Assembly (NCBI GenBank): GCA_937858705.1
Contig: CALLZM010000024.1
Span: forward strand, 1 to 64,000
Origin: an uncultured Candidatus Saccharibacteria bacterium
Lineage (GTDB): Bacteria; Patescibacteriota; Saccharimonadia; Saccharimonadales; Saccharimonadaceae
Direction of reading: 5' to 3'
Length of the DNA stretch: 64,000 nucleotides
Shown here: in pieces, positions 4,116-15,643 of the stretch
Layout of the letters: each line of letters opens with the position of its first letter
Position numbering within the stretch: position 1 is the first letter of the stretch
The notes under the pieces: generated by a model
What the model saw: the letters and a program-made list of their open reading frames with translations, nothing else
Database searches by the model: none
Told to the model about the DNA's origin: nothing
Made by a program: the position numbers and the translations under genes

Positions 4116-6617
4116 TTATGATTTTTTAGAGGTAGATTTTTTTGTTGCGGTCTTTTTTGTGGTTGTTTTCTTGCCAGTGTTACGAACTCTCCCTCGTTTA
4201 GCAGGGGCATTTGCGAGTAATTCTTTGGCTTGCGTATGAGTAATGGATTTTGGGTCGGTATCTTTTGGAACTTTAGCATTTTTCTTACCATCGGTGGCGT
4301 ACGGGCCAAAACGGCCGTTCAGGACTTTGATGCCATCGCCAAAGTCTGCGATGTTCTTCTCGGCTTCGGCTTTCAGCTTTTCGGCATAGAGTTCAAGAGC
4401 TCGCTCGAGCGTGATGTCGTGCGGGTCATCTTCTTTGAGGCTAACATACAGTGGTGTGGTGGTCTTTGTTTTGGTGCCAATCTGGATAAATGGGCCAAAC
4501 CGGCCAACATTGGCACGGATATCGACGCCATCTGGTGTTTGACCGACGATTCGTGGCAGCTTAAATGCTTCGAGGGCTCGCTCGAGCGTGATAGTCTCAA
4601 TCTTCGTACCCTTTGGCAGCGGCGCAAACTGTGGCTTTTCATCATCTTCGGTGGTGCCCAGTTGTAGCATGGGCCCAAAACGGCCAAAGCGGGCGATGAT
4701 TGGCTTGCTGGATTTCGGGTCGATACCAACTTCGCGGTTTGTGCCAACTTTCGAGCGGTCAATGTTGTCAGATTGTTCGATCAATCCGTGAAATGGCGTG
4801 TAAAATGCACGCAGCATGTCGCTTTTGGCCAGTTTAGCGTCAGCGATTTGGTCAAATTCCTTCTCGACATTGGCAGTAAAATCGTAGTCGATAACTTGGG
4901 TAAAGTGGTTGCCGAGGAAGCCGGCGATGAGCTCGCCGCTTGGAGTTGGCAGGAGTTTGCCTTTGTTGGAGCCAGTTTTTTCTTGGACGACTTCCCTGTC
5001 GACCGTTTCGCCGTTGTAGGTGATGACGATGATGTCGCGCGGTTCACCCTCACCCATGCCCTTTTCGGCGTAGCCGCGGGTTTGGATGGTGTCGATGATG
5101 GTGGCGTAGGTGCTTGGGCGGCCGATGCCGAGGTCTTCCAGTTTTTTGACGAGCGAACCTTCGGTGTAGCGGGCTGGTGGGCGGGCAAAGGTTTGGCGGG
5201 CTTCGATGTGGTGGGTGGAGAGTGTGTCGCCAGAGGTTACTTTTGGCAGTAGTTCTTCCTTACCACCGCCGTAGACACGGAGAAATCCGTCGAAGATGAT
5301 GACTTCGCCTTTTGCTTCAAATATGAGAGTGGTTTTTGCGGTTGCCTTCTTGCTACCGTCTTTTTCAGAATCGGCTTCGCTCCGGGTTTCGGCCGAGGCC
5401 CCGGCGCTCGGAGAAACTCGGGCTGCAGAGGCTTCTGAAAAAGAGGTAGCAAGCGGCTCTACCGATGTAATATCGATGGTGATCGTCGTTTTCTCGAGCT
5501 TAGCTGGGCTCATCTGGCTGGCTAGTGTGCGACGGCGGATGAGATCGTAAAGCCTTTGGTCGTATTCGTTCGAGGAGACTGACTCTCGGGTGATGTCGGT
5601 TGGTCGGATGGCTTCGTGAGCTTCTTGGGCGGAGGCGGACTTGGTTTTGAACTTGCGAACGGTTGAGTACTCTGGGCCGTAGAGTTGTTTGATGAAGTCG
5701 GTTGCAGCGGCGATGGCTTGGCCGCTGAGGTTGACTGAATCGGTTCGCATGTAGGTAATTTTACCGGCTTGGTAGAGTTTTTGGGCCGCCGCCATGGTAG
5801 CTTTGGAGCTGAAGCCGAGCTTTGCGTTGGCCTCTTGTTGTAAAGTTGAGGTGGTAAATGGCGCGGCTGGGTTGCGTGTTCCAGGTGATTTCGTGATGTC
5901 CGCCACTGTAAAGGATGAACCTTTGAGGTGTTCGAGGAACTCGGTTGCTTCCTTCTCGGTGTCGAATCGCTGATTGAGCTCTGCTTTGAACTCTTGATTG
6001 TCGTGGATAAACAGCGCGACAACCTTGAACTGCGAGCTGCCTTCAAACGCCGTGATTTCTTGTTCGCGCTCGACAAGCAGTCGTACGGCCGGACTCTGCA
6101 CGCGTCCCGCCGACTTGCCGCCGGGGACCTTCTGCCACACGACTGGGCTCAGCTCGAACCCGACGATGCGGTCGAGGATTTGCCGTGCTTGCTGCGCTTG
6201 AACGAGGTTCATGTCGACGGTTCGCGGGTGTTTCACCGCTTCTTCGATGGCGCTTTTGGTGATTTCGTGAAAGACGATGCGCCTGGTTGTTTCGGGTGGT
6301 AAATCGAGCACTTTACAGAGGTGCCAGGCAATTGCCTCCCCTTCGCGGTCTTCATCGGTCGCCAGCCAGACATGTTCTTTGCCAACGGCTTTGACGGCCT
6401 TTTTCAGTTCGGTAATGACCTTCTTTTTCTCGGGGTCAACTTCGTACTGAGTGTAAAAATCATTCTTAATATCAATTGGTGGCGTGCCGTCCTTGGTTTT
6501 CTTCACAATAGAGCGGATATGGCCAATGCTTGAGAGCACCTGAAAATCCTTACCGAGGTACTTCTCTATGGTTTTAGCTTTTGCTGGGCTCTCAACGATA
6601 ACTAGATTTTTGCTCAT
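4116..6617 (-). CDS. topA: DNA topoisomerase I
   Basis: 833 residues from the ATG at 6617; this start is preferred because it opens with the Toprim motif MSKNLVIVESPAKAKTIEKY, while an upstream in-frame ATG only adds 13 unconserved residues. The enzyme relaxes negative supercoils by a type IA mechanism. The active-site region GKITYMRTDS holds the catalytic tyrosine. Three C-terminal topoisomerase repeats (RFGRFGPMLQLG, VGRFGPFIQIG, LNGRFGPYATDG) replace zinc fingers, and the tail is rich in lysine, threonine and serine. Between ITIDIT and the conserved FEAKGEVIIFDGFL region sits an extra Ser/Ala/Glu-rich stretch of about 50 residues encoded by a large DNA palindrome (5349-5453). The insert stays in frame. 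Single gene convergent with nothing nearby. Confidence 0.95.
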   Translation of the reverse strand: MSKNLVIVESPAKAKTIEKYLGKDFQVLSSIGHIRSIVKKTKDGTPPIDIKNDFYTQYEVDPEKKKVITELKKAVKAVGKEHVWLATDEDREGEAIAWHLCKVLDLPPETTRRIVFHEITKSAIEEAVKHPRTVDMNLVQAQQARQILDRIVGFELSPVVWQKVPGGKSAGRVQSPAVRLLVEREQEITAFEGSSQFKVVALFIHDNQEFKAELNQRFDTEKEATEFLEHLKGSSFTVADITKSPGTRNPAAPFTTSTLQQEANAKLGFSSKATMAAAQKLYQAGKITYMRTDSVNLSGQAIAAATDFIKQLYGPEYSTVRKFKTKSASAQEAHEAIRPTDITRESVSSNEYDQRLYDLIRRRTLASQMSPAKLEKTTITIDITSVEPLATSFSEASAARVSPSAGASAETRSEADSEKDGSKKATAKTTLIFEAKGEVIIFDGFLRVYGGGKEELLPKVTSGDTLSTHHIEARQTFARPPARYTEGSLVKKLEDLGIGRPSTYATIIDTIQTRGYAEKGMGEGEPRDIIVITYNGETVDREVVQEKTGSNKGKLLPTPSGELIAGFLGNHFTQVIDYDFTANVEKEFDQIADAKLAKSDMLRAFYTPFHGLIEQSDNIDRSKVGTNREVGIDPKSSKPIIARFGRFGPMLQLGTTEDDEKPQFAPLPKGTKIETITLERALEAFKLPRIVGQTPDGVDIRANVGRFGPFIQIGTKTKTTTPLYVSLKEDDPHDITLERALELYAEKLKAEAEKNIADFGDGIKVLNGRFGPYATDGKKNAKVPKDTDPKSITHTQAKELLANAPAKRGRVRNTGKKTTTKKTATKKSTSKKS
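5349..5453. repeat. 105-bp palindromic element inserted in frame in topA
   Basis: Outer arms are CTTGCTACC (5349-5357) plus CTTTTTCAGAA (5360-5370), pairing perfectly with TTCTGAAAAAG (5433-5443) plus GGTAGCAAG (5445-5453). Inner GC-rich segments also pair (CCGAG with CTCGG, GGGTTTC with GAAAC-type arms), giving one long imperfect hairpin. Length is 35 codons, so the reading frame is kept. It encodes a low-complexity Ser/Ala/Glu segment absent from ordinary TopA. The layout resembles Rickettsia palindromic elements in form; no sequence relation is claimed. Confidence 0.75.
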
Positions 6618-6841
6618 ATCGTTTACTATAGTAACGGTAATGCCTGGAAAAAACAAATATATTGACTGTCGTCGTAGTTATAATGCTTCAAAACGAGGTA
6701 ATAAATCTTGTATTCCATCGCTAAATTCGGTCCGAATCCTCTCATGTGCGGCTGTTTGCAATGCTTTTGAGTGTGAATTCGATACGCCTCATCTTTATAT
6801 TCGAGAAAAGTCCAGCTTTGTGAAAGAAGCGTGCGAAAAGC

Positions 6842-6869
6842 TTGTACTTATAGCGAATAAGAGTATACT
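6842..6869 (+). promoter_or_regulatory. Promoter of the small gene at 6909
   Basis: TTGTAC (6842-6847), a 16-bp spacer and TATACT (6864-6869) precede a leader of about 33 nt. A Shine-Dalgarno site AAGGAG (6896-6901) lies 7 nt before the ATG at 6909. The rest of 6618-6841 holds no gene I can support. Confidence 0.6.
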
Positions 6870-6908
6870 ACGCATATAGATAATATTATTGCCGGAAGGA
6901 GAAATAGT

Positions 6909-7118
6909 ATGGATAGTGGCTATGGTGAAGTCAATGGCGTGGGAACAAGCAATGCATATGACCCCAGTAAGGCTATGATTCCGAGAGATCCAGAGTATTT
7001 CCTTCCGCAAATGACTGAAGCAGGGATGGACTTTTTGCGACCCGAAGATGTATTGCGCGAGGAGGTGCCAGCTGGCATCGGTGCTGCTGCCGCTGAAGCC
7101 CCTTCATGGGAACACTAG
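6909..7118 (+). CDS. Small hypothetical protein (69 aa)
   Basis: 69 residues, acidic and soluble, with no membrane segment, cysteine or known motif. The middle (MIPRDPEYFLPQMTEAGMDF) looks globular and the C-terminus is Ala/Glu-rich. The protein is not recognised. Reality as a gene is supported by a recognisable promoter (6842-6869) and a well-placed Shine-Dalgarno site, AAGGAG, 7 nt before the ATG. It converges on dprA and the two coding regions overlap by 4 nt at their stops. Confidence 0.6.
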   Translation: MDSGYGEVNGVGTSNAYDPSKAMIPRDPEYFLPQMTEAGMDFLRPEDVLREEVPAGIGAAAAEAPSWEH

Positions 7119-7975
7119 CTCAATGCCCACTGATTCGCCCCGAGGGCTTTGATGACACCGTTTATCTCGAGCATAGTGAGGGCGGTATTAAACTCGCTTG
7201 GATTGGCACCTAGTGTTTGCAATATGGCATCGCCATCTCGTATGCCTTTTTGCAGGGACTTGAGGATATCATTTTCCAGAGGAGTAGAGCCTATTGGCAA
7301 TAGTGTTTGCTTGGTGTTGTCGAGGAGGCCGAGGGCTTCTAGAATATCTTGAGTGTCTAGCACGGGTATCGCACCTTGCTTGATGAGTTGGTTGCAGCCT
7401 GCGCTCATGGGGCTGGTGATATTTCCTGGCACGGCGAACACTATTTTTCCTTGATTCAGCGCATGGGCGGCAGTATTGAGCGTACCGCTACGGCTTGCGG
7501 CTTCCGTCACGATAACGATATCTGATAGTCCACTGACAATTCGATTTCGCTCGAGAAACCGATGCTGCATTGGCTCAACCCCAGGCTCATATTCGCTCAA
7601 AATAGCACCATTTTTAGCTAGGATGGTTTTGGCAAGCTCGCGGTTAGTGTTCGGATATATACGATGCAGCCCATTTGCGAGAACTGCGATAGTGGTACCG
7701 CTTGCCGCCAGCGCTGCCTTATGAGCTAACGCATCTACTCCGATGGCCAGTCCACTAATGATAACCACTCCTTTTTTTGCCAGCTCCCCAGCAATTCTTT
7801 CGGTTATTTCTTTACCGTAGGCAGTCGGCTTCCGTGAGCCAACAATTGCCACGGACGGCTGCCTGGTAGCGGGTAATTCTCCCATAACATACAACTTATC
7901 TGATAAATCAGCAATACACTCGCTTATCTTGAGGTAGTCGTGCTCTTGGGGGTTGATTATATTGATATTATCCAT
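7115..7975 (-). CDS. dprA: DNA-processing protein DprA/Smf
   Basis: 286 residues. DprA binds incoming single-stranded DNA and loads RecA during natural transformation. The Rossmann-like core shows VAIVGSRKPTAYGKEIT near residue 43, then ISGLAIGVDALAHKAAL, and GTLNTAAHALNQGKIVFAVPG near 165, the conserved Smf signature. The C-terminus ends in a small winged-helix-like region (DAILQTLGANPSEFNTALTM). The length is typical for a DprA lacking the N-terminal SAM domain. Its presence agrees with DNA uptake capacity, which is known in cultivated Saccharibacteria. No clear consensus promoter is visible; an inverted repeat (TTGAC / GTCAA) lies about 20 nt upstream. The upstream 400 bp contain a plus-strand RNA gene transcribed away from it. 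Confidence 0.92.
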   Translation of the reverse strand: MDNINIINPQEHDYLKISECIADLSDKLYVMGELPATRQPSVAIVGSRKPTAYGKEITERIAGELAKKGVVIISGLAIGVDALAHKAALAASGTTIAVLANGLHRIYPNTNRELAKTILAKNGAILSEYEPGVEPMQHRFLERNRIVSGLSDIVIVTEAASRSGTLNTAAHALNQGKIVFAVPGNITSPMSAGCNQLIKQGAIPVLDTQDILEALGLLDNTKQTLLPIGSTPLENDILKSLQKGIRDGDAILQTLGANPSEFNTALTMLEINGVIKALGANQWALS

Positions 7976-7992
7976 AAATGTTTCAAAAAGTG

Positions 7993-8021
7993 TTGACTAA
8001 ATGTCAATTGTGTGCTAATAT
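7993..8021 (+). promoter_or_regulatory. Promoter of the structured RNA
   Basis: TTGACT (7993-7998), a 17-bp spacer and TAATAT (8016-8021) point rightwards and predict a transcription start near 8028, immediately before an 11-bp hairpin (8031-8056). No open reading frame follows in the 350 nt before the terminator. Confidence 0.55.
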
Positions 8022-8027
8022 TGAAAG

Positions 8028-8376
8028 TGATTGATTATTCCTGCGAGGATAATCAAGCACCTTATACCCCCTATTTTAACAAGAATTCCTATTTTAGGAA
8101 TCTCGTTAGGTTGCATATAATGTGCCATAAAGAGTAACTACCCTCCACTTTCTATGGCTCCTTTCTCTGGAAAGAAGCATTATATGTATACTAACCCCTT
8201 TAACACCCCTTTTTCAAAGGCTGAACTTTAGGGTTTGACTATCCAGTAGTGAGCTGTTACGGCTCAGGCGACCATCTTCGTGGAGTTAGATGCGATCGCT
8301 TCAAACACTCAAGCCCAGGGTGGGTTGAAGGGTAATATGGCGCCAGGTGATGCCCACCCTTACCTGGCGCTTTTTT
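8028..8376 (+). ncRNA. Unassigned structured RNA, about 350 nt
   Basis: The 399-bp gap between dprA and fur holds no credible ORF but many paired segments on the plus strand. They include a 5' hairpin (TTGATTAT-CCT with AGG-ATAATCAA, 8031-8056), a possible closing helix joining 8060-8069 with 8330-8340, a hairpin at 8078-8107, and a perfect 9-bp long-range helix, CATATAATG (8114-8122) with CATTATATG (8178-8186). That helix encloses GCCATA/TATGGC and CTTTC/GAAAG hairpins. Further on are AACCC/GGGTT, GAGC/GCTC (8251-8265), CCA-TCTTCG-TGG (8272-8283) and CTTCAA/TTGAAG (8299-8330). A promoter (7993-8021) and a terminator (8340-8376) bracket it. I find no tmRNA ends or tag, no RNase P core and no SRP motif, so the family is unknown. 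Pairing was judged by eye. Confidence 0.6.
8340..8376 (+). terminator. Intrinsic terminator of the structured RNA
   Basis: GCGCCAGGT (8340-8348) pairs perfectly with ACCTGGCGC (8362-8370) and is followed by TTTTTT (8371-8376). The T-run is on the plus strand only, so it cannot serve fur, which runs the other way. The nearest plus-strand gene upstream ends 1.2 kb away, which implies a transcript starting in between. Confidence 0.9.
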
Positions 8377-8779
8377 AGTTTCGACAATTCTGGCACAGCC
8401 CTTCGAGTTCGAAATGGTGATTGGTCAATGCGTAATGATGCTCACGGACGATACGGTCTATTAGCTGTTCTAGCTGAGGATTTTTTACCTCGATAAGTTC
8501 TTTGCAGCGAGTGCACTGTAAATGATGATGGTGTGGCTTGAATGGATCCGCTAGCTCGTATTGCTTTTTCCAACCAGTATGGATAACGCGGACGATGTTC
8601 AGCTGAACGAACAATTCGAGCGTGCGGTATAGGCTGGTGCGATCGATTGCAGGAACCGAGCGAGTGAGCTGCTGAAGCGACAATGGTTGCTGTGCTTTTT
8701 TAAGAGCTGTAAATACTTGTTTGCGCGGCGCGGTCAGGCGATGTTTGCTGGTGCGGAGTAATGTTTCGAGGCGTTCCAT
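8375..8779 (-). CDS. Fur-family metal-dependent repressor
   Basis: 134 residues from the ATG at 8779, which fits the family's usual length; an upstream in-frame start would add 51 unconserved residues across the promoter. The N-terminal winged helix (HRLTAPRKQVFTALKKAQQP, RTSLYRTLELFVQL) is followed by a His-rich dimer/metal domain (PHHHHLQCTRCKELIEV) and a second CxxC (CQNC), giving a structural zinc site. Whether it senses iron, zinc or peroxide cannot be told from the sequence. It is divergent from the four-gene PLP/sulfur operon and shares with it a control region of TTGCAAT half-sites (8780-8838). The -10 box TATAAT ends 6 nt before the ATG, so the message is probably leaderless. Autorepression and control of the operon are inferred. 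Confidence 0.9.
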   Translation of the reverse strand: MERLETLLRTSKHRLTAPRKQVFTALKKAQQPLSLQQLTRSVPAIDRTSLYRTLELFVQLNIVRVIHTGWKKQYELADPFKPHHHHLQCTRCKELIEVKNPQLEQLIDRIVREHHYALTNHHFELEGLCQNCRN

Positions 8780-8838
8780 GTTGCAATTATACTTACTATT
8801 GCAACAAATTTGCAATAGATTGGCGCGGCCTATAAAAT
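8780..8838. promoter_or_regulatory. Divergent operator/promoter between the Fur gene and the PLP operon
   Basis: Three TTGCAAT half-sites lie at 8781-8787, 8798-8804 (inverted) and 8810-8816. The last two form a 19-bp near-palindrome, ATTGCAA-N5-TTGCAAT, the usual size of a Fur-type box; the outer pair is a perfect 8-bp inverted repeat with a 10-bp spacer. The palindromic hexamer TTGCAA (8810-8815) can be the -35 box for both directions: 18 bp to TATAAT (8791-8786) for the Fur gene and 17 bp to TAAAAT (8833-8838) for the operon. Confidence 0.7.
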
Positions 8839-8846
8839 GATGAGTT

Positions 8847-9791
8847 ATGAGAATAGCATTTTTAGGAAAAGGTGGCAGTGGCAAGAGCACTATATCTGGG
8901 TTATTCACTCTGTACGCTGCCGAAAAAAACAAGCGAGTGGCGCTGCTCGATGTCGATGTTAATAGCCATACGGCAAGTATGCTAGGGGTGACGGAGCCAG
9001 TTATCGAGCTAGCGGGTAGTGAGTCGGTGCACGATATTCGGAGTCATCTGAAAGGCGCAAATCCTAGAGTAGAGGTGCACGAGTTCCTCAATACTACCCC
9101 TCCGGGTCGCGAGAGCGGTGTATGGACACTCGATGAGAATAATCCTATCACCCGGGCGTTCGGTGTTGTAGTGAAGCATGGCGCACGAGTATTTACCGTC
9201 GGGTCGTATAGTGTCGATCGAATAGGTATAGACTGTCATCACGGCGCACAAGAAATCGCGGAGAATATGCTATCTCACGCTCAGTTGGCAGATGATGATA
9301 TGGTGGTGATTGATAGCGTGGCGGGTAATGATACATTCGGTAATACGCTGTTTATGCAGGATATGTTGATTTTCGTGGTCAAGCCAGAGCGCGAGGGCAT
9401 TGATGTGTTTCAGCGATTTTTGCAACTGGCGACGGAGGCCGGTGTTGGCGAGCGGGTTTTTGCGATCGGTAACCAAGTTTCTTCTGACCGGCAAGAAGCG
9501 TATCTGCGCGAGCATGTGCCCGATAGTGCTCTTTTGGGGGTTATTCGGGCCAATCAAGTTATCGTTGACGATCGGCTCGACGATATGCCTCTTGGACTTA
9601 AGCATATTCGTCCAGCCGACAAAGAAGTGTTCGATACTATTCTGGCCAAAGCGCAGACTTGTGTTCAGCCCCCCGAGGAGCGACATAGAGAGTCGATAGC
9701 GATGCACCGCAAAGTGGCGAGCCAGAGTTGGGTGGCTGGTGCGTACCGTAAAGGACTAGAGGATCAAATCGACGAGGAGTATCGGCCGTGA
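8847..9791 (+). CDS. CooC/MinD-type ATPase (SIMIBI family)
   Basis: 314 residues. A deviant Walker A motif GKGGSGKST at residues 7-15 carries the signature lysine of the ParA/MinD/NifH/CooC class. ALLDVDVNSHTASMLG follows at about 31-47, and MVVIDSVAGNDTFGN near 152 is the switch/Walker B region. CooC-type members drive metal insertion into enzymes and others carry Fe-S clusters or position complexes; which applies here is not known. No partner ParB or MinE is nearby. It is the first gene of a four-gene operon under a predicted Fur-type operator, and its stop overlaps the next start by 4 nt (GTGA). The ATG lies 8 nt after the -10 box and has no Shine-Dalgarno site, so translation is probably leaderless. 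Confidence 0.8.
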   Translation: MRIAFLGKGGSGKSTISGLFTLYAAEKNKRVALLDVDVNSHTASMLGVTEPVIELAGSESVHDIRSHLKGANPRVEVHEFLNTTPPGRESGVWTLDENNPITRAFGVVVKHGARVFTVGSYSVDRIGIDCHHGAQEIAENMLSHAQLADDDMVVIDSVAGNDTFGNTLFMQDMLIFVVKPEREGIDVFQRFLQLATEAGVGERVFAIGNQVSSDRQEAYLREHVPDSALLGVIRANQVIVDDRLDDMPLGLKHIRPADKEVFDTILAKAQTCVQPPEERHRESIAMHRKVASQSWVAGAYRKGLEDQIDEEYRP

Positions 9792-11167
9792 CTATGCCTC
9801 CTATGCTCACGCCACTGATGCAGGAGTTGGTGGATAAATCGGACGACATGGCTGAGCTGATGCGGGTCGAAAGAAGAGCGTTGGCGATAAGTCTGCCAGA
9901 TGAAGCAGTGCTAGCAACGCAGAAATTCCAACGGGAACTTGATGACCTGTCGCTAGCTTATCGGATATTCGTAGTGCATAAAGCGACCGATCGCACGCAT
10001 GTGGTAAAACGGCTAACGAGAGAGCTCGGCGTCGGTGTTGATGTGGCATCGCTGGGCGAACTAGAGGCGGCGCTGGCTTGTGGTATTAATCCTGCCGATA
10101 TCATTGTTACGGGTCCGAAATCGACTCGGTTGTTGGAGCGAGCCGTTGAGGTGCGATGTCGAGCTATCGTCATCGATAGTCTGGGCGAACTGGAGCGCTT
10201 ATTGGTGATTGAATCTACGGAGTTACCAGAAGTGTTGTTGCGACTGTCGCGCACTATGACGAATATGCCAGGCATTACTAAAGTTGGTCGATTTGGCCTG
10301 GACATGGCTGGCTATAAATCCGCTCTTGCTCTGTTACGGGATACTCATCGGGTGACGCTCCGTGGTTTGGCGTTTCATCTTGATTCTATAGATGTGAACG
10401 AAAAGTCGTATGCTATAAAAGTTGCTTTGGGCTTGTTGTCGGAGCTTTCTTTGGATGGTTTTGATGCCACGGTGCTTGATATTGGTGGTGGTTACGGCGC
10501 AAGCTATGGTCTGTCGCCCGAGTTGGTGAGTCAATTTGAGACGACTATTCGGCGTGACTTGCAAGAAAACCGGCTCGACACTTGGCAGCAAACGGCGTTT
10601 GGCTTCAAAAAGCAAGCGGATGGCAGCATTACGGGCAACTGGAACGGTATGGACATACCAGTGTCTCCGAATGGCCCTGACCGAGTTCGCGCTTTGTTTG
10701 AGGCAAATTATGATGGCAGCACCTTGTCCGAGCAAGTAAACGAGCGACTGATTGAGATATGGTGTGAACCAGGAAGTGCCATATTTACAAACGCTGGTGT
10801 AGTAGCGACGGAAATCATCGACAGCAGTGAGCGCGATGGCGTCGGTGCGGTGGTGACCAATGCGTCGTATATGCAGCTACAATTTGATGGCAATGAAGTG
10901 CCGATTGATCCCGTGTTTATACCGCGCACCAAAGATGAAAACGGAGATACCTATGCTGCGTACATTCACGGACAGCTCTGTATGGAACGCGATGTGCTAT
11001 CGCGGCGGTTGATGTCATTTTCTCAGCGACCGCAACCGGGCGATCTGCTGCTGTGGCCCTACGCTGGCGCCTATCGTATGCATATGAGCCAATCGAACGC
11101 TATTATGCACCCAGACTTGGCCCGGTATCGCTATGAACAAGGAAAGCTAATAAAGGACGAAGTATGA
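9788..11167 (+). CDS. Fold-type III PLP decarboxylase-like protein
   Basis: 459 residues from GTG at 9788; ATG at 9794 is the alternative. It belongs to the alanine racemase/diaminopimelate-ornithine decarboxylase superfamily. The PLP lysine is K65 in FVVHKATD. The glycine-rich phosphate-binding loop is VLDIGGGYGASYG near residue 228, and CEPGSAIF near 325 corresponds to the EPGR motif but has Ser in place of Arg. The C-terminal beta domain ends with GDLLLWPYAGAYRMHMS. The changed motifs and the lack of a clear CxSxD-like catalytic cysteine suggest a substrate other than diaminopimelate. SbnH of staphyloferrin B synthesis and the Y4yA-type enzymes belong to the same superfamily. Second gene of the operon, overlapping both neighbours by 4 nt. 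Confidence 0.75.
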   Translation: MTMPPMLTPLMQELVDKSDDMAELMRVERRALAISLPDEAVLATQKFQRELDDLSLAYRIFVVHKATDRTHVVKRLTRELGVGVDVASLGELEAALACGINPADIIVTGPKSTRLLERAVEVRCRAIVIDSLGELERLLVIESTELPEVLLRLSRTMTNMPGITKVGRFGLDMAGYKSALALLRDTHRVTLRGLAFHLDSIDVNEKSYAIKVALGLLSELSLDGFDATVLDIGGGYGASYGLSPELVSQFETTIRRDLQENRLDTWQQTAFGFKKQADGSITGNWNGMDIPVSPNGPDRVRALFEANYDGSTLSEQVNERLIEIWCEPGSAIFTNAGVVATEIIDSSERDGVGAVVTNASYMQLQFDGNEVPIDPVFIPRTKDENGDTYAAYIHGQLCMERDVLSRRLMSFSQRPQPGDLLLWPYAGAYRMHMSQSNAIMHPDLARYRYEQGKLIKDEV

Positions 11168-12486
11168 TTTATAACAGAATAGAAGATATTATCGGCGACA
11201 CTCCCTTGCTGCGGCTCAATGCCGCAGACTATGGCGTGCAACATGTCGATATATATGTAAAGTTGGAATATCTCAACCCATTTGGGTCGATTAAGGACCG
11301 AACGGCGAAGTATCTAGTGCAAAATATTGATTTCGCAGAACTACGCCACAACAAAGCAAAACTCATCGAAAGTTCGAGTGGTAATACTGCCAAAGCCTTG
11401 CAAATGATCGCCCATCGCGAGGGTGTTGGGTTTACCTCGGTGACGAATCGCATCAAGATCCCAGAAGTCGAAGATGTATTGCGCTATCTTGGCACCGATA
11501 TTGTGTCGCTGCCTGGTCGTTCAGAGTGTCCCGATCCAAATGATTCAGATAATGCAATCGCAACGATTGAGCATATGGTGAATGTTGAGCCCGAAAAGTA
11601 CCACCACACTTCGCAGTATACCAATCTGGATAACCCAAAGGCGCATCGGGAGACTACAGCCAAGGAATTATATGCAGATCTTGAAACTATCGACTATATT
11701 GTCACTGGTGTTGGCACTGGCGGCTCGAGCGGTGGGGTGCTGGAATATATCAAAGAGCACGATCTATCGACTGAATGCGTTGGCGTGGTGGCGCACCCGA
11801 GCGATTTTTTGCCGGGTATTCGTACCAAGAACGAACTGTTTGAGACGCCGCTGTTTCAAGAACGATGGTTTGCTGATATCACAGAAGTCACTACCGAAGC
11901 GGCGCTCGAAGCACTTGATATATTAGTGCGGCGCGAGGGCGTGTTGGCTGGGCCGACGACCGGTGCTAATTTTGCGGCGGCGCTGGAGTGGTCGAAAGCA
12001 CATGATGCGTTGCGCGAGGACGGTTCGCGAAAAACTTTGGTGTTGGTTGCTTGCGATCGGCTGGAGCCGTATATGTCGTATCTCAAAAAGCGGTTGCCAG
12101 AGCGGTTTGGTTTGACCAGCCGCAATGATGTGTATCAGTTGAGCGAATATGGTGAAGTGCCAGACATCGAGGTGGCAGAGCTGGCTAAAAAACTGGCTTC
12201 ACCTACGCCGCCGCTAGTTATTGATACTAGGGGTGTGAAGGCTTATGGTTTATTCCACATTGCAGGGTCGCTTTGCTATCCCGAGCAGCTATTGCAGGAA
12301 TTGTTCGAAGATGGCGCACCTTTTGCGGCCGATGAAGTGGTTTTTGTGTGTCCGAAGGGCGATCGAAGCAAGCTATATGCTGGCTTATTACAACAGCGAG
12401 GGGTGACGGCCTATAGTCTTAAAGGTGGCTTGATGGAGTGGCGGCAGTCGGGCCAACCGCTAGAACGAGTAAAGGTTGGTAACTGA
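11164..12486 (+). CDS. Cysteine synthase-like PLP enzyme fused to rhodanese
   Basis: 440 residues with two domains. Residues 1 to about 320 are a fold-type II PLP enzyme of the O-acetylserine sulfhydrylase/cystathionine beta-synthase family. The PLP lysine is K44 in NPFGSIKDRT, the substrate loop SSSGNT is at 70-75, and the phosphate loop GTGGSSGG lies near 182. Residues about 335-435 form a rhodanese domain (LVIDTRGVKAYGLFHIAG) with an active-site cysteine in FVCPKGDRS. Such a fusion could feed persulfide sulfur to an aminoacrylate intermediate or release sulfur from cysteine. The SbnA-type (O-phosphoserine) relatives that make diaminopropionate precursors are another possibility. It sits directly before a cysteine desulfurase-like gene, sharing one base (TGATG), which supports a sulfur-handling role. 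Confidence 0.82.
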   Translation: MIYNRIEDIIGDTPLLRLNAADYGVQHVDIYVKLEYLNPFGSIKDRTAKYLVQNIDFAELRHNKAKLIESSSGNTAKALQMIAHREGVGFTSVTNRIKIPEVEDVLRYLGTDIVSLPGRSECPDPNDSDNAIATIEHMVNVEPEKYHHTSQYTNLDNPKAHRETTAKELYADLETIDYIVTGVGTGGSSGGVLEYIKEHDLSTECVGVVAHPSDFLPGIRTKNELFETPLFQERWFADITEVTTEAALEALDILVRREGVLAGPTTGANFAAALEWSKAHDALREDGSRKTLVLVACDRLEPYMSYLKKRLPERFGLTSRNDVYQLSEYGEVPDIEVAELAKKLASPTPPLVIDTRGVKAYGLFHIAGSLCYPEQLLQELFEDGAPFAADEVVFVCPKGDRSKLYAGLLQQRGVTAYSLKGGLMEWRQSGQPLERVKVGN

Positions 12487-13565
12487 TGGAACGACATCGC
12501 TATCCTGTGCTGCGAGATCGCCCAGAATTGATCTATCTCGATGCTTCGAACGGCTTTCCGCTGCATGAAGTCATCATTAACAGCGTATCGGCGCTAGCGA
12601 GTTCGCTGGTGGGCATGCCGGGCAAGGCGCAGTATGGCGATGGCTATCAGGCCTCGGCAATTGTTGAGCAAACCCGCCAGAAGATAGCGAAATATATCAA
12701 CGCCGATAGCTCGGAAGTATTTTTCGTCAGCAGTGCCACTGAAGCAGCACGCTTGCTGGCCGAAGAGTGGTGTTTGCGGGATACAACAGCGACAGTTGCT
12801 TATTCGCCTGAAGATCACACCGCAACGAGTCGAGCGTTGGCGAATATGGCACCTGATCGCTTGCGTCTGCTGGCGTATAACGAAACTGGTCAGTATCAAA
12901 ATCTTGCAGAAGCTTCGGTATACTTTGTAAACCATCTGCATCATTTGTATGGCACAGATATTGTACCGAGCGACATAAAGGAGCGATATCCGAATTCTCG
13001 GCTGGTGGTCGATGCTTCGCAATCAATCTCACGATTAGAAGTAGATGTGAAAGCCATGCAGGCAGACGCGCTCTATTTCTCTGGCCACAAGCTCGGTGCA
13101 ATGGGCGGGTCTGGCGTGTTATTCGTTGCAAAAGCCCATCATGGCCGGTGGAAACCTACGGATTTTGGTGGTGCGTCGTTACCGCTGCTCGCGATAGCTT
13201 CTATGGGCAGGGCTATTGATATTTTGGCGAGTCAATCTATGTTCGAGCGAGATAAGTATCTTGCGGAGCTGACGGGCTATGCTATCAGTGTGCTCGAAAC
13301 GGTGCCAGGCGTAGTATTTTCTAAGGGCATCACTCAGGCACTCGATATGTGTACTGGCAGCGGTATTGTGTCATTCAAACTGCGCGGGTTGTCATCGACC
13401 GATGTCATGCTATTTCTTGATGAGCACAACATCTCAGTCCGTGGCGGCGACCACTGTGTGTCGCCAGAGTTCGCCGATCAAGACTTCGTCCGTATCAGCA
13501 TGCAGGCCTATACGACGCATGACGATATTGATCGACTAGTAGAAGTTATTCGGCAGATGGTCTAG
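12486..13565 (+). CDS. Cysteine desulfurase-like class V aminotransferase
   Basis: 359 residues of the NifS/SufS/IscS fold (fold-type I PLP). LVVDASQSISRLEVDVKAMQ is the cofactor aspartate region near 175, and ALYFSGHKLGAMGGSG near 200 holds the PLP lysine after His. RGGDHC near residue 318 matches the catalytic cysteine loop of SufS-type desulfurases (usual form RxGxHC). It is somewhat short for the family (about 400). The reaction is probably removal of sulfur from cysteine as a persulfide, here perhaps passed to the neighbouring rhodanese domain. It ends the operon and overlaps pth convergently by 20 nt. No SufU/IscU scaffold is in the window, so Fe-S assembly is only one option. Confidence 0.8.
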   Translation: MERHRYPVLRDRPELIYLDASNGFPLHEVIINSVSALASSLVGMPGKAQYGDGYQASAIVEQTRQKIAKYINADSSEVFFVSSATEAARLLAEEWCLRDTTATVAYSPEDHTATSRALANMAPDRLRLLAYNETGQYQNLAEASVYFVNHLHHLYGTDIVPSDIKERYPNSRLVVDASQSISRLEVDVKAMQADALYFSGHKLGAMGGSGVLFVAKAHHGRWKPTDFGGASLPLLAIASMGRAIDILASQSMFERDKYLAELTGYAISVLETVPGVVFSKGITQALDMCTGSGIVSFKLRGLSSTDVMLFLDEHNISVRGGDHCVSPEFADQDFVRISMQAYTTHDDIDRLVEVIRQMV

Positions 13566-14121
13566 TTTCTCTATGAGTAGTGGTTTCGAAGTTTCCAGCG
13601 ATGAAATTTCGTATATTGTCGGCGATTTTTGACGCAAGATTATCGAGCATTTTGAGCTCCTCTAGTGATAGACGGCTCAGAACGAAGTCGGCATTGTCCA
13701 TCTCGGCAGGTCGTTCACGGTTGATACCGATGCGGAGTCGTGCAGTGTGTGGTCCAAGGTGGGCGGTGATCGATTTTATGCCTTTGTTTCCAGCGTCAGA
13801 GCCACCGAGGCGAGTGCGAATGGTGCCAAAATCGAGCGCGAGCTCGTCGTGTATGATGAGCGTATCTTCGGGGGGTATTTTATAAAAATTGGCAATTGCT
13901 TGAGCTGATTCGCCCGTTTGGTTGTAATAAGTAGTTGGCTTGGCACATAGTACCTTCTCCCCTGCTATGGTGAGTTCGGCGATGTCGGCTTTACATTTAG
14001 GCATAGCGCGAAAGGAGCCATTACTATCTGATATAAATCGATCGAGCACCAACCAACCAGCATTATGCCGAGTATTGGCGTATTCTGGTCCGGGGTTGCC
14101 TTGGGCGACAATGAGTTTCAT
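13546..14121 (-). CDS. pth: Peptidyl-tRNA hydrolase
   Basis: 191 residues, the usual length. Pth recycles peptidyl-tRNA released from stalled ribosomes. Motifs are VAQGNPGPEYANTRHNAGW (with the catalytic histidine), IIHDELALDFGTIR and GGSDAGNKGIKSI. The -10 box TATTAT (14133-14128) ends 6 nt before the ATG, so this is a probable leaderless message. Its 3' end overlaps the desulfurase-like gene by 20 nt in the opposite direction. Confidence 0.96.
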   Translation of the reverse strand: MKLIVAQGNPGPEYANTRHNAGWLVLDRFISDSNGSFRAMPKCKADIAELTIAGEKVLCAKPTTYYNQTGESAQAIANFYKIPPEDTLIIHDELALDFGTIRTRLGGSDAGNKGIKSITAHLGPHTARLRIGINRERPAEMDNADFVLSRLSLEELKMLDNLASKIADNIRNFIAGNFETTTHRETRPSAE

Positions 14122-14176
14122 GACTGTATAATATTGACTTTTATTTAATAATATGCTACAATGAAAGGATACGGTG

Positions 14177-15643
14177 TTACTTTTCTTCTTCTGGAGGCAT
14201 GAGTTTAGCAGCTTCCTTGGCTTGCTTATAGGCTTTAGTGACTGGCTCTAGCCCTTTGGCGACGCGTTCTTTATTCATTTTGATCTGTTTTTCATCACGG
14301 AAACTAAAACGGATTGGGGTACCACTGTAGTTGTAGGTCTCACGGACTAATCGCTCGAGGTAGCGCTTGTAGCTCCAGTGAACAAATTTGAGGTTGCTAC
14401 CGTAGATAACGAACCATGGTGGCATAGTGTCGGTTTGTACGATATAACGAAGTTTTGGGTGAGTGTTTTTCAGGCCAGCGGGCGGATGTTTTTGGGTAGC
14501 TTTTTGCAAAAGGTCGTTTAGCACACGGGTTTTGGTTGGTTGTTCACGACGGTTGATGATGTCGAGAGCGAGATCGAACAGCTTGGTGACATTTTGCCCA
14601 GTGACAGAGCTAGTGAAAATGAGCGGTGCCCATGGCACAAAGTCGAAATTGTAGGCGATTTTCGGTGCAAGAGCATCTCTAGTGTACGCATCTTTACCTT
14701 CGACGCTGTCCCATTTGCTGACAACCAACACGAGACCCTTCCCTGCTTCGGCTATCATGCCGGCGAGTTTTTGGTCGAGGGCGACATTGAGTTCATTGAC
14801 ATCCATCAATAAAAAGCAAACGGACGATTCTTCAATAGCCTGGAGAGTTCGGAGTACTGAGAATTTTTCGATACCAACTTCTTGCTTGCCTTGGCGGCGA
14901 ATGCCAGCGGTGTCGATGAGTTCGATGGATTGTTTGTGATAGTTGATGCTGACGCGGTTGAGATCACGGGTAGTGCCAGCGACATTGGCGACGATAGCCT
15001 GTTGTTTGCCAGCGAGCGTGTTGAACAGATAGCTTTTGCCAACATTTGGGCGGCCGATGAGGGCGATGCGCACGATATCGTCTGGTTCGCTATCATGAGC
15101 CGCTGGTAGTATGTCGGCCAGCTTGTCGAGCAGCTCAGATATGCCAATGTTATGTTCGGCGCTGGTGCGGATGATGTTTTTGATACCAAGGCGGCGGAAT
15201 TCGTCGGCTGGGAGTGAATTTTTGAGGTCGGCTTTGTTGAGTAGTAGAAATACTGGCTTGCGTGATTTGAGGGCTTTTTTGGCAACGAGCTTGTCTTCGT
15301 CGCTGGGGTATTCGGTGCTGTCAACCGTGACCAAGATAACATCGGCGGCTTCGGTAGCTTCGATAATCTGTTCTTGGATGCCAGCCTCGAACTCATCTTC
15401 AGGGTCTTTTAGGCCAGCCGTATCAACTAACCAGAATTCTGAATAGGGGTCTGCCTCTCCAGTTGAAGAGGGCTCGAGGACATCTCTACGAAGATACTGG
15501 ACTTTGCCAACTACGCTATCTCGAGTAGTGCCAGCTTCCCTCGCAACAATTGCCTGCTGTGACCGAACCAAACGGTTAAAAAGCGAGCTTTTGCCTGCAT
15601 TTGCTCGGCCAATAACTGCGACGGTAGGTAATTTTGATGCCAT
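14177..15643 (-). CDS. der: Ribosome biogenesis GTPase Der (EngA)
   Basis: 488 residues with two tandem GTPase domains and a C-terminal KH-like domain, the hallmark of Der, which acts in 50S subunit assembly. G1 motifs are GRANAGKSSLFN near residue 12 and GRPNVGKSYLFN near 200; NKAD and SKWD are the two specificity motifs. The KH region contains RYIVQTDTMPPWFVIYG and GTPIRFSFRD. The first domain has about 18 extra residues (LEPSSTGEADPYSE) between switch I and LVDTAGL, encoded over a small CCTCT/AGAGG hairpin at 15454-15471. The TATAAT box lies 9 nt before the ATG. Confidence 0.95.
   Translation of the reverse strand: MASKLPTVAVIGRANAGKSSLFNRLVRSQQAIVAREAGTTRDSVVGKVQYLRRDVLEPSSTGEADPYSEFWLVDTAGLKDPEDEFEAGIQEQIIEATEAADVILVTVDSTEYPSDEDKLVAKKALKSRKPVFLLLNKADLKNSLPADEFRRLGIKNIIRTSAEHNIGISELLDKLADILPAAHDSEPDDIVRIALIGRPNVGKSYLFNTLAGKQQAIVANVAGTTRDLNRVSINYHKQSIELIDTAGIRRQGKQEVGIEKFSVLRTLQAIEESSVCFLLMDVNELNVALDQKLAGMIAEAGKGLVLVVSKWDSVEGKDAYTRDALAPKIAYNFDFVPWAPLIFTSSVTGQNVTKLFDLALDIINRREQPTKTRVLNDLLQKATQKHPPAGLKNTHPKLRYIVQTDTMPPWFVIYGSNLKFVHWSYKRYLERLVRETYNYSGTPIRFSFRDEKQIKMNKERVAKGLEPVTKAYKQAKEAAKLMPPEEEK

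Follow-up and report, generated by a model that had tools for sequence, protein, structure and literature searches.

A Fur-linked operon for a CooC-like ATPase and three pyridoxal phosphate enzymes in a Saccharibacterium: a candidate metal-starvation unit for metal-ligand synthesis

Minimal biosynthesis and life on host cells mark the ultra-small Patescibacteria, Saccharibacteria among them, and their supply of scarce metals is an open question. What, then, does such a bacterium make with an operon that encodes a CooC-like ATPase and three different pyridoxal phosphate (PLP) enzymes beside a Fur-family repressor gene, and which signal does the operon answer? The locus lies within a window of 64,000 nucleotides, the whole stretch of DNA analysed here (contig CALLZM010000024.1, assembly GCA_937858705.1, uncultured Candidatus Saccharibacteria bacterium). 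We propose, with a probability of about 0.5, that the operon is a metal-starvation unit, the metal most likely being zinc, that makes an aminopolycarboxylate-type metal ligand of the aspergillomarasmine or ethylenediamine-disuccinate type. Neither the gene set nor the system was found described in the open-access literature, in keeping with the original prediction's claim that no known pathway has these exact four genes. New here are the host group, the constant presence of a CooC-like ATPase with a C-x-H motif, and the gene set itself. The features of the locus are as follows.

8375-8779, minus strand (ATG at 8779): Fur-family repressor gene, 134 amino acids, Pfam FUR 1.5e-19, divergent from the operon and nearly leaderless
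8798-8816, no strand: operator ATTGCAACAAATTTGCAAT (TTGCAA-N5-TTGCAA) between the divergent promoters, with its 17-base core TTGCAACAAATTTGCAA at 8799-8815
8831-8838, plus strand: -10-like element (TATAAA/TAAAAT) of the operon promoter, about 10 nucleotides 5' of the ATG
8847-9791, plus strand: CooC-like ATPase gene, an open reading frame with Pfam CbiA at E 4.8e-9
9788-11167, plus strand: fold-type III PLP decarboxylase-like gene with a GTG start, Pfam Orn_Arg_deC_N 1.1e-27
11164-12486, plus strand: PALP-rhodanese fusion gene, Pfam PALP 2.4e-50 and Rhodanese 6.8e-12
12486-13565, plus strand: SufS-like fold-type I PLP enzyme gene, Pfam Aminotran_5 8.4e-47

The four operon genes are all on the plus strand and overlap by 4, 4 and 1 bases, which bears out their description as a single operon read end to end. 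An earlier span of 8375-13565 had included the repressor gene; fur does adjoin, but it is divergent, and the operon proper occupies 8847-13565. Pfam and NCBIfam agree with the gene names at the superfamily level, and family searches confirmed that folds III, II and I are combined in one unit. In NCBIfam every match to an operon protein falls well under the curated cut-off, and no textbook member is among them.

The product is best approached through the PALP-rhodanese enzyme, in which Pfam places the PALP domain at residues 6-298 and a C-terminal rhodanese domain at 338-428. It has the PLP lysine K44, the sequence SSSGNT, a CPDPND insertion and the rhodanese cysteine C396, the last being invariant in nine family members. 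All of the top four PDB matches to its predicted structure belong to aspergillomarasmine A synthetase (chains of 8h4h and 8h4q), and a profile of the nine members matched that synthetase over its full length at 284 bits, the best cysteine synthase reaching 185. In a phylogenetic tree the window type, a second type from four related loci (L121, L134, L160 and L162; loci are numbered L and genomes G throughout) and the fungal enzyme formed one clade (support 0.865) apart from 64 ordinary enzymes, with the motifs SSG[NS]T, a P-x-P-x-D insertion, PG.R[TS] and GP[TS][TS]G shared across the clade. Fungal enzymes with the same fusion join O-phosphoserine to L-Asp or L-Ala through a C-N bond, and marasmines are metal chelators (PMC12751119). 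Aspergillomarasmine A synthetase and Fda4 of Fusarium poae share with the operon enzyme a PALP domain with C-terminal rhodanese, the motifs and the best structural match, and their products belong to the chelator class. They differ in that the fungal system is a two-gene cluster for which no CooC, decarboxylase or SufS partner is described, and in that the window enzyme belongs to a sister subfamily. Because the best match is to a C-N-forming enzyme, a sulfur pathway is a weaker reading than a C-N route, and the rhodanese domain, once taken as a sign of sulfur chemistry, is not upheld as evidence for one.

It is hypothesized that the PALP-rhodanese enzyme would turn an activated serine, probably O-phosphoserine, into PLP-aminoacrylate and would then add the amine of an amino acid. 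A diaminopropionate-like C-N adduct would result, as with aspergillomarasmine A synthetase. Loss of a carboxylate through the fold-III enzyme would next leave an ethylenediamine-type core, and the SufS-like enzyme would carry out a third PLP step (desulfuration, lyase or transamination). The decarboxylase keeps its PLP lysine (K65) and catalytic cysteine (C398-x-E-x-D), belongs to a family that matches diaminopimelate decarboxylase (2e-31) and BtrK (9.1e-30), and by analogy would fit this C-N ligand route. In staphyloferrin B synthesis the fold-III decarboxylase SbnH acts after the step that forms diaminopropionate. An SbnA-like PALP enzyme and a fold-III decarboxylase occur together here as well, the earlier suggestion that a metallophore is made by chemistry like that of SbnA and SbnH is supported, and an SbnB-like gene is present in the sister locus L132. 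Unlike the staphyloferrin B system, the window operon lacks SbnB and a nonribosomal-peptide-synthetase-independent siderophore (NIS) synthetase, and its PALP enzyme is fused to rhodanese.

Several observations tell against this chemistry. Taken alone, the window PALP-rhodanese sequence scored 71 bits against aspergillomarasmine synthetase, within the range for ordinary cysteine synthases (65-82); the strong match comes via the sister subfamily. The fusion is the sole PALP gene in four of the five operon genomes, the source genome included, so that a cysteine-synthase role is possible. No exporter or importer is among the operon genes, and secretion and re-uptake of a ligand are not accounted for. 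The SufS-like enzyme keeps the full desulfurase residue set, namely the PLP lysine (K202), the catalytic cysteine (C324) and two substrate arginines (R319 and R336), which a purely C-N pathway would not need. Its NCBIfam bit score is under the curated cut-off, and the role of this enzyme is the main gap in the proposed pathway.

These residues are also the starting point of the leading rival. The SufS-like enzyme would draw a persulfide from cysteine, the rhodanese domain would carry it, the PALP domain would add it to activated serine, and the decarboxylase would convert the resulting amino acid, a thiol or a persulfide, into an aminothiol metal ligand. The invariant C396 is consistent with such a route, as are the absence of another PALP enzyme from the source genome and the ranking of CysK and SbnA as the best curated families for the PALP enzyme, although SbnA reached 162 bits against a cut-off of 350. 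Against it stand the C-N bonds made by the fungal relatives, the occurrence of PALP-rhodanese without SufS beside CooC and Fur in L121, L160 and L162 and beside CooC in L134, and the circularity of making cysteine from cysteine sulfur. We therefore consider it unlikely. A housekeeping cysteine synthase working through O-acetylserine is likewise unlikely, as cysE was not found in the five genomes with the operon and the O-acetylserine route is thus closed.

The ATPase would tie the proposed ligand to metal. A PDB sequence search gave the CooC assignment of this first operon protein; CooC (3kje), the nickel-insertion ATPase of CO dehydrogenase, was also first among solved structures for a profile of 16 relatives (2.1e-28) and the best PDB match to an AlphaFold2 (AF2) model with a pLDDT (predicted local distance difference test) of 92. 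Two hallmarks of CooC, the fold and the P-loop with a deviant Walker A (KGGSGK), are present, and the CxC metal motif is absent. In its place is C130-H131-H132, and in the profile alignment the family's C-[YH]-H falls on the C-Y-C metal motif of 3kje. All 26 relatives keep C130 and H132 (pattern C-[YHFAG]-H). The protein therefore shares with CooC its fold, its deviant Walker A and the position of its metal motif, and differs in its C-x-H, its extra C-terminal helices and the lack of a CO dehydrogenase context. Were the protein a dimer, two Cys and two His would be available, as in a zinc site. The ATPase would bind metal across the dimer and spend ATP on passing that metal to the ligand or a client protein, or on freeing it from either.

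Fur-family control, as originally predicted, was borne out: one operator is common to both divergent promoters and overlaps both -35 elements. By sequence inspection each -35 element lies within the operator, and the start codons follow a few bases past the -10 elements. Metal-loaded repressor would shut both promoters, and zinc shortage would open both. At the operon lies the only exact match to the 17-base core in the 910-kb (0.91-Mb) genome, and the reversed control has none; the exact-match search found no further targets in the source genome. In each of the 18 order-level loci whose upstream region could be read, a version of the palindrome precedes CooC. A matrix built from these 18 loci was tested on ten held-out phylum-level loci, where a site scoring at least 13.5 was present directly upstream of CooC in five (L157, L161, L162, L163 and L165), while in two (L160 and L164) it lay ahead of a fur-CooC pair read in one direction; the matrix scan gave no clear site in the remaining three. 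One shuffle of the same DNA yielded two above-threshold matches in 524 kb.

The genes that share the operator speak to the metal. In a Zur-type regulon, zinc uptake and COG0523 genes would be expected under the same operator, and this was found in relatives: downstream of the operator lie a ZIP gene (L130), a ZupT-like ZIP gene together with a gene of 500 bits to the zinc chaperone ZigA (L165), and an ATP-binding cassette (ABC) transporter operon nearest the zinc system AztABC (L200). Since these zinc-type genes are preceded by the same operator, the operon signal is probably zinc shortage. ZIP genes also lie in or adjoin the CooC cluster in L119, L120, L124, L126, L131 and L162. The AztABC-like operon of L200 (L200:1-2969, G025) is accompanied by a second Fur-family gene.

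If instead the regulator is an Fe-Fur or Nur-like sensor, the operon would make the same kind of ligand and its ATPase would handle nickel as CooC does. Much of what favors iron or nickel counts at the same time against zinc. In a PDB sequence search the regulator matched a Fur structure (9.5e-16) better than a Zur structure (1.4e-13), entries which we take to be Fur of C. jejuni and Zur of S. coelicolor. It keeps a Fur-like glutamate (YEL) before HHHH at the metal site, its best named matches are Fur, and ZIP and ZnuA were looked for in the source genome and not found. The operator form is fitted by the nickel Nur box tTGCaa-N5-ttGCAA (PMC3919588) as well as by the iron MgFur operator TTGCAAATCATTTGCAA used for crystals (PMC4506495), and CooC is known as a nickel ATPase (PMC9164220). 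The operator sequence itself does not decide the metal. The zinc-type character of the operator-sharing genes and the C-x-H in place of CxC make a nickel or iron sensor rather improbable.

A cofactor or iron-sulfur (Fe-S) assembly unit, in which the SufS-like desulfurase would work with an NUBPL/CooC-like carrier ATPase, is suggested by domain types alone and was rejected as very improbable, given that the SufB/SufD core is absent from all five operon genomes and present in 14 of 14 controls, that the source genome has a second cysteine-desulfurase-family gene of better match than the operon's, and that sister clusters hold natural-product-type enzymes.

How widely is the proposed ligand operon shared? 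The order of the four genes is identical in G033 (L095), G006 (L096), G292 (L119) and G378 (L120), all Saccharimonadales, and the neighborhood comparison indicates that the set is kept together beyond chance. Three of the four (CooC, decarboxylase and PALP-rhodanese) occur with Fur in G724 (L159), of another family in the same phylum. Scattering of the genes in relatives had been named as an outcome that would undo the original prediction, and it was seen only in part: the set stands together in five genomes, but elsewhere the CooC/Fur core has quite other genes beside it. The CooC-like ATPase turned up in 19 of 393 order-level genomes and in 13 of 380 sampled from the phylum, and the four-gene set is rare and patchy. 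When named genomes were scanned with patterns taken from three sequences, a single true relative emerged, L015, which has all four genes, is deposited as Candidatus Saccharibacteria and is apparently identical with the G033 contig; the rest were ordinary cysteine synthases. In a plasmid collection only a misfiled Nonomuraea chromosome and an Acetoanaerobium chromosome matched, and a plasmid or phage origin of the cluster is unsupported, with no search of phages made. L166 (G408:C23) is a decayed copy of the cluster, with CooC, decarboxylase, PALP and SufS fragments carrying internal stops.

Across loci the usual core is Fur and the CooC-like ATPase, and the other genes vary. PALP-rhodanese is the sole partner in L121, L134, L160 and L162. 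The partner is a short-chain dehydrogenase/reductase (SDR) in L122 and L123, two aminotransferases in L124, and YibE/F proteins in L156 and L157. In L125 a DIT1/PvcA isonitrile-synthase-like protein comes first and a membrane protein, judged YibE/F-like by eye, comes next, and L132 has an SbnB-like dehydrogenase (4.5e-56) and a CobW-type GTPase with no Fur nearby. These sister clusters with PvcA-like and SbnB-like genes count for the ligand reading. U390 of L124 matched PvcA weakly in a pairwise comparison and is not claimed as a relative. Small SCO5389/PF20704 proteins are encoded directly 3' of the CooC-like gene in L126, L128, L129, L131, L156, L157, L158 and L161, and also at L218:11025-11411; N-C is invariant in them, and Asp-Cys stands exactly at the C terminus. 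A gene of this type follows the ATPase gene in Nonomuraea, so the conserved partnership spans Patescibacteria and one actinomycete. PF20704 was formerly in AntiFam and was afterwards reinstated (PMC9710616).

At least ten Saccharibacteria loci have the cluster in a common slot between der-pth and dprA-topA, and in four genomes whose ATPase lies elsewhere the same slot holds just ZIP. The slot was seen at 4116-15643 of the window and in L095, L119, L120, L126, L128-L133 and L207-L210. Between dprA and the metal slot, at 8012-8376 on the plus strand, lies a noncoding element of about 360 nucleotides that ends in a terminator-like hairpin. It is conserved in 11 other genomes, has 52 predicted pairs of which 21 are changed on both sides, gave no match in an Rfam search and is a candidate new structured RNA. 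A different Saccharibacteria cluster (L097:3323-8577, G005), with LysA-like decarboxylase, SbnA-like, agmatinase-like, D-Ala-D-Ala ligase-like and KamA-type radical S-adenosylmethionine (SAM) genes one after another, looks like another small-molecule pathway.

Zur-controlled zincophore clusters offer the nearest regulatory parallel. Ethylenediamine-disuccinate synthesis in Amycolatopsis is under Zur control (PMC6103462). Clusters of this kind, among them those for coelibactin and pseudopaline, are likewise ligand operons controlled by the Fur superfamily, with zinc transporters and COG0523 in the regulon; unlike them, the system described here has a CooC-like ATPase as its constant gene, no exporter in the operon and an ultra-small Saccharibacterium as its host. 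It is about as likely as not that Patescibacteria carry a modular metal-starvation system, in which a constant core of Fur/Zur-type repressor, operator and C-x-H CooC-like ATPase is combined with interchangeable ligand modules, often exchanged in one chromosomal slot. The modules would be PALP-rhodanese, either by itself or joined by the decarboxylase and the SufS-like enzyme, a PvcA-like isonitrile synthase, an SbnB-like/CobW set, and the SCO5389 family with its C-terminal cysteine.

The comparison provides genomic context for PF20704/SCO5389, a family formerly treated as spurious, and points to candidate relatives, in bacteria, of aspergillomarasmine synthetase, an enzyme with metal-binding products. 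If the proposal is true, the rule that these bacteria make almost nothing would have an exception in a dedicated, regulated metal-ligand operon with a metal-handling ATPase of a new class, and competition for metal between epibiont and host would become testable.

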